Assembly: GCA_023265175.1 (NCBI GenBank)
Contig: JAHFUI010000021.1
Coordinates: forward strand, 1 to 42,997
Reading direction: 5' to 3'
DNA: 42,997 nucleotides
Origin: Acidobacteriota bacterium
GTDB lineage: Bacteria > Acidobacteriota > Vicinamibacteria > Vicinamibacterales > CAVVIG01
Below the pieces are notes generated by a model. The model was not told the DNA's origin and made no database searches. It was given only the letters and a program-made list of their open reading frames with translations. The translations under genes and the position numbers were made by a program. Shown here piece after piece: positions 11,043-42,768 of this stretch (its first letter is position 1; every line of letters begins with the position of its first letter).

Positions 11043-11739
11043 AGACCCCGCATCGGGTAATTGCGTAATCAGGTAATTGGGTAAGGTGATTAGCGCGTTC
11101 ACAAACCCAAAGCGTTCCGCAGTAAAATGACAGTCGTGCTCGAATTGCTCGCGTTTCTCGTGGAGCCGATCTTCTGGGTGTTCATCGGGCCTCGGCATAC
11201 GCCCCCTTGAGGCCGATATGAACATCCTTTAGCTTCTATTTGGCACTTGATCAATGACACCGCTTCTTCTGAGCCGGTCGAAGACATCCTTCATCGAATT
11301 CTCTGACCGAATGCCAGCAAGCTCGCGGGCGACTCGATTGGAGGCTGGCCGTCGCGACCACACGACACCGTGGCCGCAGCGTCTCACGCGACGGTCACGG
11401 CGACGCGTGCGGTGACCGTGTGCGTAACCCCGCCGCGAACCCGCGCAGGTACCCGTCCTTCGCACAACCCCTTGACCGCCGCGAGCGCGGAATGGTACGA
11501 CGCGTAGGACACGGTGTCCGGCCTGCCGACCAGGTTGGCAGCGACGAGGGATCCCGGCGGCTGTCGCGCGGCGGCCTATCGGTACGGCTCCAAAGTGATG
11601 ATCCACTGCCGGTAATTGGGTAACGTTGTAATCGGATTGCGATCAGGGCCTGCTCGGTCAGCAGGCCATTTTTCTTGCCCTGTTTGGCCGCATGGGCAAG
11701 TCGTTCGCGAGCGTGCCGGCGCACGCGTTGCTCGATGCG
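11043..11739. other. Gene-poor stretch with AT-rich GGTAATTGGGTAA repeats
   Basis: No convincing gene is seen. The stretch opens with an AT-rich run containing GGTAATTGGGTAA (about 11072-11084), and the same string recurs near 11612-11624. On the minus strand, the frame ending at a TGA at 11384-11386 reads for about 60 codons with high GC in third positions (segment DTVSYASYHSALAAVKG, then VTHTVTARVAVTVA). It begins at an in-frame stop near 11578 with no start codon, so it could be the tail of a decayed gene. I do not recognise it. The last part merges with the pseudogene at 11740-11991. Confidence 0.4.
11127..11210 (+). CDS. Possible 27-residue hydrophobic small protein
   Basis: ATG at 11127 to TGA at 11208-11210 encodes a short, strongly hydrophobic peptide (MTVVLELLAFLVEPIFWVFI, then GPRHTPP). 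It could be a one-helix membrane peptide or the truncated start of a membrane protein. There is no good ribosome site in front of it (AGTAAA), and one short ORF can occur by chance, so the call is weak. Confidence 0.2.
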   Translation: MTVVLELLAFLVEPIFWVFIGPRHTPP

Positions 11740-21180: not shown

Positions 21181-23370
21181 TTACTGTCGCTTCAGCAGCA
21201 GACAGCCGAGCGGCGGGACCGTCAGCCGCAGCGACTGGTCGAAGCCGTTCGCGGCGATCGGTTCGCTCTGGACGCCGCCGGCGTTGCCGACGTTGCTGCC
21301 GCCGTAGAGCGCGCTGTCGCTGTTGAGGAGCTCGGCATACGAGCCGGCCGCCGGCACGCCTATGCGGTAGCCGTCGCGCGCCACGGGCGTAAAGTTGAAC
21401 ACCATCACGACGAAATCGTCGCGATCGCGCGCGTGGCGCACGATGGACACAACGCTGTTCTCGTTGTCGTTGCAGTCGATCCAGCGAAAGCCGCCGGGCT
21501 GGAAGTCGGCCTGGTGGAGCGCGGGCTGCGCCCGATAGTGCCAGTTGAGATCCTGCACGAAGCGCCGCAGCGCCCCGTGCGCGGGATCGGCGAGCAGATG
21601 CCAGTCGAGGCTCCGATCGTGATTCCACTCACGCCACTGCCCGAACTCGCCGCCCATGAACAAGAGCTTCTTGCCCGGATGGCCGTACATGTAGCCGTAG
21701 AGCGTGCGCAGCGTCGCGAGCTTCTGCCACACGTCGCCCGGCATCTTGTCGAGCATCGCGCCCTTGCCGTGCACGACTTCGTCATGCGAGAACGGCAGGA
21801 TGAAATTCTCGGTGTGCATGTAGAGCGCCGAGAACGTTACCAGGTTGTGCTCCCACCGGCGATGGATCGGATCTGTGTGCACGTACTCGAGGACGTCGTG
21901 CATCCATCCCATGTTCCACTTGTAGGTGAACCCGAGGCCGCCCAGGTGCACCGGCCGGCTGACGCCGGGCCACGCCGTCGATTCCTCGGCGGCCGTGATC
22001 GTGCCCTCGAACTGGCCGTGCGTGAGCCGGTTCAGCTCCTGCAGAAAACCGATCGCTTCGAGGTTTTCACGCCCGCCGAACCGATTCGGGATCCATTCGC
22101 CGGCGTTGCGCGAGTAATCCAGATACAGCATCGACGCGACCGCGTCCACCCGCAGGCCGTCGATGTGATATTCCTCGAGCCAGAAGAGCGCATTCGACAG
22201 GAGAAAATTCCGGACTTCGTTGCGCCCGTAGTTGAAGATGAGCGTGCCCCAGTCGCGATGCTCGCCCTGCCGCGGATCGGCGTGCTCGTACAGCGCCGTG
22301 CCGTCGAAGCGCGCCAGGCCGTGGTCGTCTTTCGGAAAGTGTCCCGGAACCCAGTCGAGGAGGACACCCAGGCCGGCCTCATGACAGGCGTCGACGAAGA
22401 GCTTGAAATCCTCCGGCGGACCGAACCGGCTGGTCGGCGCGAAAAACCCCAACACCTGATAACCCCACGAACCCGAGAATGGATGCTCCATCACCGGCAG
22501 CAGCTCGATGTGCGTGAAGCCGAGATCCTTCACGTAGGGCACGAGCCGGTGCGCCATCTCGCCATACGTCAGGAAGCGGTTGCCTTCTTCCGGCACGCGC
22601 GCCCACGATCCGAGGTGCACTTCGTAGATCGTCAGCGGCTCGTCGAGCCACCCATGATGGCTCTTGCGCGCCGCCATCCAGCGCTCGTCGCGCCACCGGT
22701 AGCCCGAGATGTCGCGAACGATCGCGGAGAAATGCGGCGGCGCCTCGAACGCGAAGCCGTACGGATCGCTTTTCTCGAGCAGCGCGCCCTGGCCGGTGCG
22801 GATCTCGAACTTGTACTTCTCGCCGTCGGGCAAGTCGGGAATGAAGGTCTCCCACACGCCGCTGGGCGACAGCAGGCGCATCGCGTTCACACGGCCGTCC
22901 CATCCGTTGAAGTCGCCGATCACGCTGACGCGATCGGCATTCGGCGCCCACACCGCGAAGTGCACACCGGTCGTCGATCCGACCCGAATCCGGTGCGCGC
23001 CGAGCTTCTCGAACGCGCGGTAGTGCGTGCCTTCACCGAGCAGGTGCAGATCGAAATCGGTCAGCACCCGGCCGTAGCGGTACGGATCGTCGAATTCCAG
23101 AACGTGATCGCCGGGGTAGGTGACGCGCAGGCGATAGTGCGACACGTCGGCCGCCACGACCGTCTCGTGAAGTCCCGCTGGACTCCGACGCGCCATCCTG
23201 CGCAGCTCACCGTCGGCCAGCCGCACGTCTATCGATCGGGCGGCCGGCTGGAACGCGCGGATGACAGTGCCCTCGCCTGATGGCGCTGGATGGGGGCCCA
23301 GCACCGCAAACGGATCGCGGTTCCGCCCCTTGACCAAGGCCATCAGGGCCTCGTCGACGGCTCTCATCAT
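21181..23370 (-). CDS. glgB: 1,4-alpha-glucan branching enzyme
   Basis: 729 residues, about the length of the E. coli enzyme. It makes alpha-1,6 branches in glycogen in the cytoplasm. Two N-terminal modules ([10 protein letters not shown]; then the CBM48-like [20 protein letters not shown]) precede the GH13 barrel. The catalytic residues are present: Asp409 in [11 protein letters not shown], Glu462 in [12 protein letters not shown] and Asp530 in [13 protein letters not shown], each offset by +4 from the E. coli numbering. The C-terminal domain ends in [17 protein letters not shown]. The start codon lies at the edge of the octamer repeat, and the DNA in front of it lacks a ribosome site, so the start could be the second Met. 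No other glycogen gene is adjacent. The gene is divergent from the amidase gene. Confidence 0.95.
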
Positions 23371-23509
23371 CTGGTTATCTGGTCATCTGGTTATCTGGTT
23401 ATTTGCTTATCTGGTTATCTTGTCATTTGTTGTTCAATTGAACCAATGAGCACATCAAATGACCAGATAACCAGATAACCAGATAACCAGATGATCAGAT
23501 GACCAGATG
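23368..23509. repeat. TGGTTATC octamer hairpin element, copy 1
   Basis: The left half (23368-23428) is a run of 8-bp units of the type TGGTTATC with a few variants. The right half (23457-23509) is its reverse complement (CCAGATAA units). The spacer holds AATGAGCACATC (23445-23456). The whole forms a long imperfect hairpin that fills nearly all of the space between the divergent glgB and amidase genes. A second copy is at 27009-27119. Confidence 0.85.
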
Positions 23510-26374: not shown

Positions 26375-26416
26375 CTCGCGCTCCTTTTGTCAGATTGCTG
26401 ATACCAGTATGATCTC

Positions 26417-27008: not shown

Positions 27009-27119
27009 ATTTGGTTATCTGGTTATCTGGTTATCTGGTTATCTGGTTATCTGGTTATTGAATGAACACATCGCCAAATAACCAGATAACCAGATAACCA
27101 GATAACCAGATGACCAGAT
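27009..27119. repeat. TGGTTATC octamer hairpin element, copy 2
   Basis: About six TGGTTATC units (27012-27059) are followed by the loop containing AATGAACACATC (27061-27072) and by the complementary CCAGATAA units (27074-27119). The element fills the complete gap between the convergent cyclophilin and ankyrin genes and would fold into a long stem, so it may serve as a bidirectional terminator there. Confidence 0.85.
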
Positions 27120-27788
27120 TCAGACTCCGCCGTGCCGTTGCAGGAGCGCAACAGCCTCGCGGTGATGGCGTTGCTCGGCGAGCGCGAGCGGCGTCAGGCC
27201 TTCGCCGTTGGTCGCGGTGACCTCGGCGCCCTGGGCGATCAGCGTCTTCATCGCCTCGATGTTGTTGTTGGCGGCCACGAGATGCAGGGGCCGCCATCCG
27301 GCGGCGTCCGCCGCGTTGACGTCCGCGCCGCGGCCAATCAACAGACCGGCCGCCATCTTCTGGTTCGCGGCCAGCGCCGCGTGCAGCGGCGTGTTGCCGT
27401 TCGCATTGCGCGATCGGGCGGCCACGTCGGCCGCGCGCGCGAGCAGCAGCTCGACGATGTTCGAATGGCCGAAAAAGGCGGCGAGATGAAGCGGCGTCCA
27501 GCCATCGTCGCTGTAGGCGTTGGGCGCCGCGCCGCCGGCGATCAGCCGCTCCACTCGATCGAATTCACCGGCCGCGCACGCCTCGAACAGCGTGAGCGCC
27601 GCGCCGCGCGCGACGAGCAGGTTCACAATTTCCTTTCGGCCGTTGTAGACAGCGGTTAGGATCGCGCCTTCACCCGTGCGGCTCCGCGCGTTGACGAGCG
27701 CCGGGTCGGCCGACACCAGCGCTTTGACGCGTTCGAACTCGCCAGCCTTGATCGCGGCGAACAGGTCGGACTCAGTGGACTCCGTCAT
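27120..27788 (-). CDS. Ankyrin-repeat protein
   Basis: 222 residues without leader or membrane segment. About six ankyrin repeats are visible, for example DDGWTPLHLAAFFGHSNIVE, NANGNTPLHAALAANQKMAA, AAGWRPLHLVAANNNIEAMK and GEGLTPLALAEQRHHREAVA. Ankyrin stacks bind other proteins; no catalytic domain is attached and the partner is unknown. The start codon overlaps the start codon of the divergent receptor gene (ATG at 27787 on the plus strand, CAT at 27786-27788), so promoter and ribosome site must lie inside the neighbouring coding sequence. The stop codon touches the octamer repeat. Confidence 0.9.
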   Translation of the reverse strand: MTESTESDLFAAIKAGEFERVKALVSADPALVNARSRTGEGAILTAVYNGRKEIVNLLVARGAALTLFEACAAGEFDRVERLIAGGAAPNAYSDDGWTPLHLAAFFGHSNIVELLLARAADVAARSRNANGNTPLHAALAANQKMAAGLLIGRGADVNAADAAGWRPLHLVAANNNIEAMKTLIAQGAEVTATNGEGLTPLALAEQRHHREAVALLQRHGGV

Positions 27789-40349: not shown

Positions 40350-40429
40350 GAACCACAAAGAGCACGAAGATCACAAAGGCTCTTTCTTTACGAGAACTTG
40401 CTTTGTGACCTTTGTGTCCTTCGTGGTTC
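40350..40429. repeat. AAAGGACAC-type repeat, long hairpin copy
   Basis: The arms 40350-40378 and 40401-40429 (29 nt each) pair with about five mismatches around a 22-nt loop; the units read CACAAAG, CACGAAG and TCACAAAG. It lies in the 247-bp gap between the carboxymuconolactone-decarboxylase-like and the amidohydrolase genes and is the best-formed member of the family. Confidence 0.7.
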
Positions 40430-42632: not shown

Positions 42633-42660
42633 GCAAAGGACACAAAGGGTACAAAGGACG
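42633..42660. repeat. AAAGGACAC-type repeat, tandem copy
   Basis: CAAAGGACACAAAGGGTACAAAGGACG contains three AAAGG units 25-60 bp upstream of the SGNH start. It has no complementary arm here, unlike the copy at 40350-40429. Confidence 0.5.
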
Positions 42661-42768
42661 CAACGGATGGGAACGATCGGAAGGACGCCGGGGTGGCGGT
42701 CGACGCTGGTTGCAAGACCCAGCCGCTCGCGGCATGATTGCCGGCGTGCGCGTGCCGTTTGCGTCGCT

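Follow-up and report, generated by a model that had tools for sequence, protein, structure and literature searches.

Octamer hairpins at gene junctions of an acidobacterial genome, probably short versions, without the gene, of a mobile element with an S23p/IVP gene

A hairpin made of tandem octamers lies between two convergent genes in a contig of an Acidobacteriota bacterium (JAHFUI010000021.1; the whole stretch of 42,997 nucleotides that was analysed is referred to here as the window), and it raises the question of whether it is a terminator, a chance microsatellite, or an element with an origin and a distribution of its own. The hairpin occupies positions 27009-27119 and is free of open reading frames; it was described from the sequence, TRF, folding, gene prediction and Pfam. 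The left arm, recognized from the sequence and with TRF (27009-27059, forward strand), consists of ATT, five copies of TGGTTATC and one of TGGTTATT, with the octamers covering 27012-27059. It is followed by a 17-nt spacer or loop, GAATGAACACATCGCCA (27060-27076), which is not conserved across the octamer elements, and by the right arm (27077-27119, reverse strand), which is the reverse complement of the left one and contains five units of the form (A/G)AT(A/G)ACCA, i.e. four of AATAACCA/GATAACCA and one of GATGACCA at 27077-27116, plus a final GAT. The six and five octamers of these 111 bases form a 42-bp stem, and folding gives a minimum free energy of -75.2 kcal/mol compared with -21.2 for shuffled sequences (z = -18); the stability of the stem is far above chance level.

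The first-pass annotation had described the hairpin as an exact fit to its gap, and this is true to the base. The element starts right after the TGA stop codon of a gene encoding a cyclophilin-type peptidyl-prolyl isomerase (PF00160; 26496-27008, forward strand, with a listed ORF start at 26409), and it ends right before the TCA that represents, on the reverse strand, the TGA stop codon of the gene for an ankyrin-repeat protein (27120-27788). A second copy of the element (23369-23508) is found between the divergent genes glgB (reverse strand, start at 23370) and that of an amidase (forward strand), which agrees with the claim that one copy is placed in a convergent and the other in a divergent gap. 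An Rfam scan of the element gave no match at the gathering score; the matches below the cut-off, to miRNA-type hairpins of animals and plants and to RNA-OUT, were discarded as a chance likeness to any long stem. The window also includes short arrays of other kinds: an octamer array of GGTAATTG/GGGTAATT without a second arm (11052-11084), a related unit of which forms hairpins at the rpsC-rplP junction of the relatives G035, G033, G013 and G017, and the 9-mer arrays CTTTGTGAC and CAAAGGACA (40401-40425 and 42634-42667), which resemble CTTTGTGTC arrays present in other stretches of the host genome (L079 and L084).

The octamer is dispersed in the genome of the host. A 24-mer composed of three octamer units showed 338 matches with up to three mismatches in the 4.92-Mb assembly, and its reversed control showed none. 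At least 75 clusters of the TGGTTATC unit were counted in 574 kb of stretches around octamer matches; a pattern found once per arm has 161 matches in the whole genome, of which these clusters cover 143, and the true number must be somewhat higher than 75. Octamer elements are present near several contig ends (C20, C44, C65, C71, C134, C153, C181 and C185), and two of them are broken by N gaps (L085 11757 and L089 7756); the assembly therefore probably breaks at these elements, and the count of copies should be read as a minimum.

Both ends are defined in 66 clusters. The commonest form has AT(C/T), about four units, a TTGATTG-type spacer, about four units and (A/G)AT, with a total length of 80-130 bp, and the arrays range from 3 to more than 10 units. 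The TGGTTATC arm comes first in the 66 elements, i.e. their polarity is fixed, and none of them is located inside a predicted gene even though 90% of the examined stretches is coding (gene calls were made with a simple codon-usage script, not with a standard gene finder). The elements occur in tandem, convergent and divergent gaps, most of them between co-directional genes, and the orientations of the flanking genes are similar to the background; all the elements that were followed up are placed between protein genes. Most of them are flanked by a stop codon and a Shine-Dalgarno sequence. On the stop side, the stop codon is mostly 0-4 nt away, the commonest case being a TGA that touches the element; towards the start codon, a sequence resembling a Shine-Dalgarno in many cases starts about 2 nt beyond the element. 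A search for target-site duplications showed that the flanks are no more alike than permuted flanks, with no exact duplication of 3 nt or longer. Beyond the host, an exact 31-mer search of contigs retrieved octamer runs from Flavobacteriales, cyanobacteria and other groups, all of them without the hairpin form; octamer-like TCTGGTTATC runs in a cyanobacterial and a gammaproteobacterial MAG (L039 and L041) lie in apparently related sequences and are possibly coding.

From these data the element is defined by its paired inverted octamer arms, their fixed polarity and its placement, and with at least 75 clusters the earlier opinion that it is a defined element and not a chance microsatellite is well founded. 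The reason originally given for that opinion, a conserved spacer core, did not stand. Among the 2145 spacer pairs of the 66 elements, 442 score as high as or higher than the pair on which the claim was based, and other octamer arrays of the genome do have unrelated spacers, the outcome that the first-pass annotation had named as refuting its claim. In addition, the genome contains exactly four copies of the 12-mer AATGARCACATC, two in octamer elements (both window copies) and two outside of them. On the basis of the pair comparison and of this count, the spacer was rejected as a conserved element. The spacers do have a loose common core, TTGATTG...CAATCAA (the 99th percentile of pair scores is 33 versus 17 for shuffled sequences), which differs from the motif named earlier. 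In contig C202, two neighbouring octamer elements (L062 3714-3822 and 5121-5237) carry the nearly identical spacer TTGGCGTCACGACAATCGA, which suggests local copying or conversion.

Orthologous junctions of the ribosomal-protein operon reveal presence and absence of the hairpins, even within one genus. The host genome has three octamer elements in this operon (rpsC-rplP, rplE-rpsN and rpsE-rpmD), and the operon gaps of its relatives often hold inserts, which differ in their units and in many cases form hairpins. For instance, in genus g16 the genes rplD and rplW overlap in an ATGA in G035, and are separated by a 115-nt gap with a heptamer hairpin in G033; at rpsE-rpmD, G035 shows a 91-nt gap with a TGGTTATC hairpin, G034 a 35-nt one-arm remnant, and G033 only 16 nt. 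Similarly, rplV and rpsC are 2 nt apart in most genomes; in G029 their gap is 109 nt long and contains a hairpin. An insert at rpsC-rplP is present in most genomes of the family, with various units and many hairpins; the hairpins found at this one place in several genomes have different units, which is beyond any simple one-insertion history and also fits a repeated independent origin or a concerted change of an old hairpin. Another kind of repeated insert, with ..GCGAGCGGGGGTGGGGCCCCGCGAGAAAGT at its end just before the start codon, was observed in L204, L205, L207, L211, L219 and others, and recurs across many genomes and junctions of the operon in the relatives.

In one cluster, on contig C130, the arms are about 380-400 bp apart and enclose an open frame. 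The gene placed between these TGGTTATC arms (C130:10903-11199) matches PF05635 (E 1e-11), the 23S rRNA-intervening sequence protein (S23p or IVP), and TIGR02436 (2e-17), the four helix bundle protein. The short elements, among them the window copies (27009-27119 and 23369-23508), which are without an IVP ORF, and this longer element have common arms, and the gene of the longer element is that of IVP. The first-pass annotation had asked whether a protein with a site for the octamer exists; the IVP/S23p gene between the same arms in this copy indicates that an octamer-associated protein probably does. Among the octamer elements, a single one has such a gene, which may be a passenger there. The host genome has just one further PF05635 gene, with arrays of the heptamer CGACTGA on both sides, in direct orientation, and this heptamer is also dispersed in the genome. 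A structural model of the C130 protein (pLDDT 97) matches the S23p structures 2rld and 2gsc (Z 16), and also Avd from the retroelement of a Bordetella phage (Z 12.5-12.9, 12% identity, 98 residues); the matches to Avd, alone and in complex with the reverse transcriptase, rank above those to unrelated helical bundles. The model thus points to a fold shared by IVP and Avd, which does not show a shared job.

IVP genes are associated with arrays of short units in three bacterial groups: the order of the host, Gammaproteobacteria and Flavobacteriales. In the order of the host, PF05635 is present in 105 of 162 genomes, often in several copies, and 59 of 71 PF05635 loci have tandem arrays of 7-9-nt units within 250 bp of the domain, on both sides in 40 cases (the arrays were called by TRF as 6-9-nt units, and the order has units of 7, 8 and 9 nt). 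Array coverage at the 71 loci is 14.9% near the gene versus 1.3% beyond 600 bp. The unit varies from locus to locus and the arms are usually inverted, the right one repeating the left in reverse complement; once similar loci were removed, the inverted match between the arms of the same locus, compared with permuted partners, gave a z of 26. Arrays on both sides were found in 5 of 127 control genes of comparable size from octamer-rich stretches of the host, and an inverted match in none of them; consequently, the enrichment cannot be put down to small gene size in a repeat-rich setting. In a draw of Gammaproteobacteria, arrays were detected at 26 of 30 IVP loci (coverage 12.4% versus 0.66%, z = 12.8). 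The association is weaker in Flavobacteriales, with arrays at 10 of 30 IVP loci (3.8% versus 0.5%, z = 7.5) and none detectable at the other 20.

The arms of the IVP genes also have a polarity: the 5' arm has more G than C at 65 of 79 loci, the 3' arm at 10 of 72, and this G-rich 5' arm agrees with the short elements, whose polarity is fixed. CGGGAGT, an arm unit from one IVP gene of the complete genome G158, matches that genome 606 times, versus 6 for the control. Moreover, IVP arms score higher against the ribosomal-protein-operon inserts of the genome that they come from than against those of other genomes (41.4 versus 30.4, p = 0.0002), an effect carried by part of the set, since the match to the own genome ranks first in 4 of 11 genomes. 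In a genome of 1.5 Mb from the gammaproteobacterial draw (G611), 11 PF05635-like matches were obtained, ten of which are copies of approximately 300 bp with near-identical scores.

We propose that the hairpin is probably a short, ORF-less and non-autonomous form of an IVP-bearing mobile element restricted to gene junctions, a reading that brings together the arms, their polarity, the dispersal, the junction placement, the presence and absence among relatives and the association of IVP genes with arms. The short form would be a non-autonomous insertion made of two inverted arrays of 8-nt units around a small spacer, and the long form, as in the C130 copy, would have the same arms enclosing the gene of S23p/IVP, a four-helix bundle of the Avd fold. 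IVP would read the arm units and mobilise both forms, possibly through an RNA step, considering that Avd, which has the same fold, works with a reverse transcriptase. Selection would remove insertions elsewhere, so that the surviving copies would be those placed between a stop codon and a Shine-Dalgarno sequence or another stop codon; these copies would then be inherited vertically, be lost or decay at the junction. When transcribed, a copy would form a double-stranded stem of about 40 bp, probably cut by RNase III as occurs in the intervening sequences (IVS) of rRNA, and this cut would leave the flanking reading frames intact. In a wider proposal, which we doubt slightly more than we believe, IVP/S23p genes and inverted 7-9-nt arrays may constitute a widespread class of mobile elements without transposase, perhaps moving by an RNA intermediate with an Avd-like protein that reads the units, and the dispersed heptamers and octamers of bacteria may originate from this class.

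The exact placement between stop codon and Shine-Dalgarno sequence could also be explained if these were RNA elements selected by the host, i.e. stems that process or stabilise the transcript between cistrons (RNase III sites, barriers to mRNA decay), with IVP as a frequent passenger, and the three copies in the ribosomal-protein operon of the host together with the rpsC-rplP inserts in most genomes of the family are in line with this idea. However, selection against gene breakage already yields this placement, the presence of the hairpin varies within one genus, and there are copies between divergent genes. Furthermore, folding of the sense and antisense strands was equal in 50 tandem elements, and for this reason selection at the RNA level is not supported; we regard this explanation as unlikely. 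It could also be argued that no mobile element exists, and that slippage generated the arrays and template switching the palindrome, independently in each gap. The variable length of the arrays, the different unit families of different genomes and the poor conservation of the spacers would be accounted for in this way; nonetheless, one unit is found at dozens of sites of the host with the same polarity in 66 of 66 elements and a common spacer core, it matches the arms that flank IVP genes in that genome, and arrays are concentrated at IVP genes, all of which makes such an origin quite improbable.

A bidirectional intrinsic terminator for the convergent cyclophilin and ankyrin genes is suggested by a strong stem located exactly between the two stop codons. 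Against it, no terminator-like site was called at either window element, a T-run near an end is present in 2 of 66 elements, and most copies lie between co-directional genes; the elements do not show the GC-rich stem with a following T-run that is typical of such terminators, and this candidate, which we consider very improbable, was rejected. The earlier assertion that the common function is not simply termination is consistent with the use of tandem, convergent and divergent gaps. Given that the elements are extragenic, palindromic, dispersed and non-autonomous, they could be thought of as palindromes of the REP/REPIN type, moved by a RAYT transposase (Y1, IS200/IS605-like), yet the domain Y1_Tnp (PF01797) has no match in the host genome (G000, 97% completeness), with positive control genomes, and the arms are octamer arrays unlike the 20-40 bp REPs. 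This option was also discarded and seems to us hardly credible.

To our knowledge, the dispersed heptamer and octamer repeats described from several bacterial groups have had no source assigned to them, and structures of S23p/IVP have been solved since 2006 without a known role. If both belong to one system, the dispersed repeats would be the ends of S23p elements and copies of these elements without the gene, the protein acting on the repeats would be S23p, and both questions would become testable. If true, it would also show insertions that collect in essential operons, such as that of the ribosomal proteins, by sitting exactly between a stop codon and a Shine-Dalgarno sequence.

Among known systems, the octamer elements resemble REPINs (PMC3116915) and MITEs in being non-autonomous, palindromic, dispersed and extragenic; in contrast, they have no RAYT/Y1 transposase in the host genome and no target-site duplication, their arms are tandem octamers, and IVP is the candidate for their partner. 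In diversity-generating retroelements, Avd (PDB 4dwl and 8ub7) has the same four-helix-bundle fold as the IVP model, but it works with a dedicated reverse transcriptase and a template repeat, and here the likeness is that of the fold of a model. The IVS of 23S rRNA with S23p, for example that of Coxiella burnetii, form stems that are cut by RNase III (PMC4990558). Like them, the octamer elements have complementary ends that form a stable stem (42 bp, z = -18) and, in the C130 long form of about 400 nt, an S23p/IVP gene within the stem; the rRNA IVS are located inside 23S or 16S rRNA genes, whereas the octamer elements are placed between protein genes, with arms built of tandem repeats, and are mostly without a gene.

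The closest comparison at the level of the repeats is with the heptameric families GGGAATC of Xanthomonas and GGGGA(T/C)T of Nostoc (PMC4692102) and with the TAACTGA repeats of marine Beggiatoaceae (PMC4679880). In these papers the arrays are regarded as repeats or as regulatory sequences, and searching the text of both turned up neither S23/IVP nor four-helix-bundle proteins. We found no paper that joins IVP/S23p to short-repeat families in a search that was thin on subscription journals and preprints, and the link seems not to have been described in the literature searched. The Xanthomonas heptamers typically form arrays of 4 units, with 70-75 inverted pairs per genome (PMC4692102). As in these families, the tandem units of the host are short, dispersed, mostly intergenic and close to stop codons, and many intergenic arrays of a single unit occur, often as inverted pairs; unlike the 7-nt units of Xanthomonas and Nostoc, the unit of the host has 8 nt and is tied to a long form that carries IVP.
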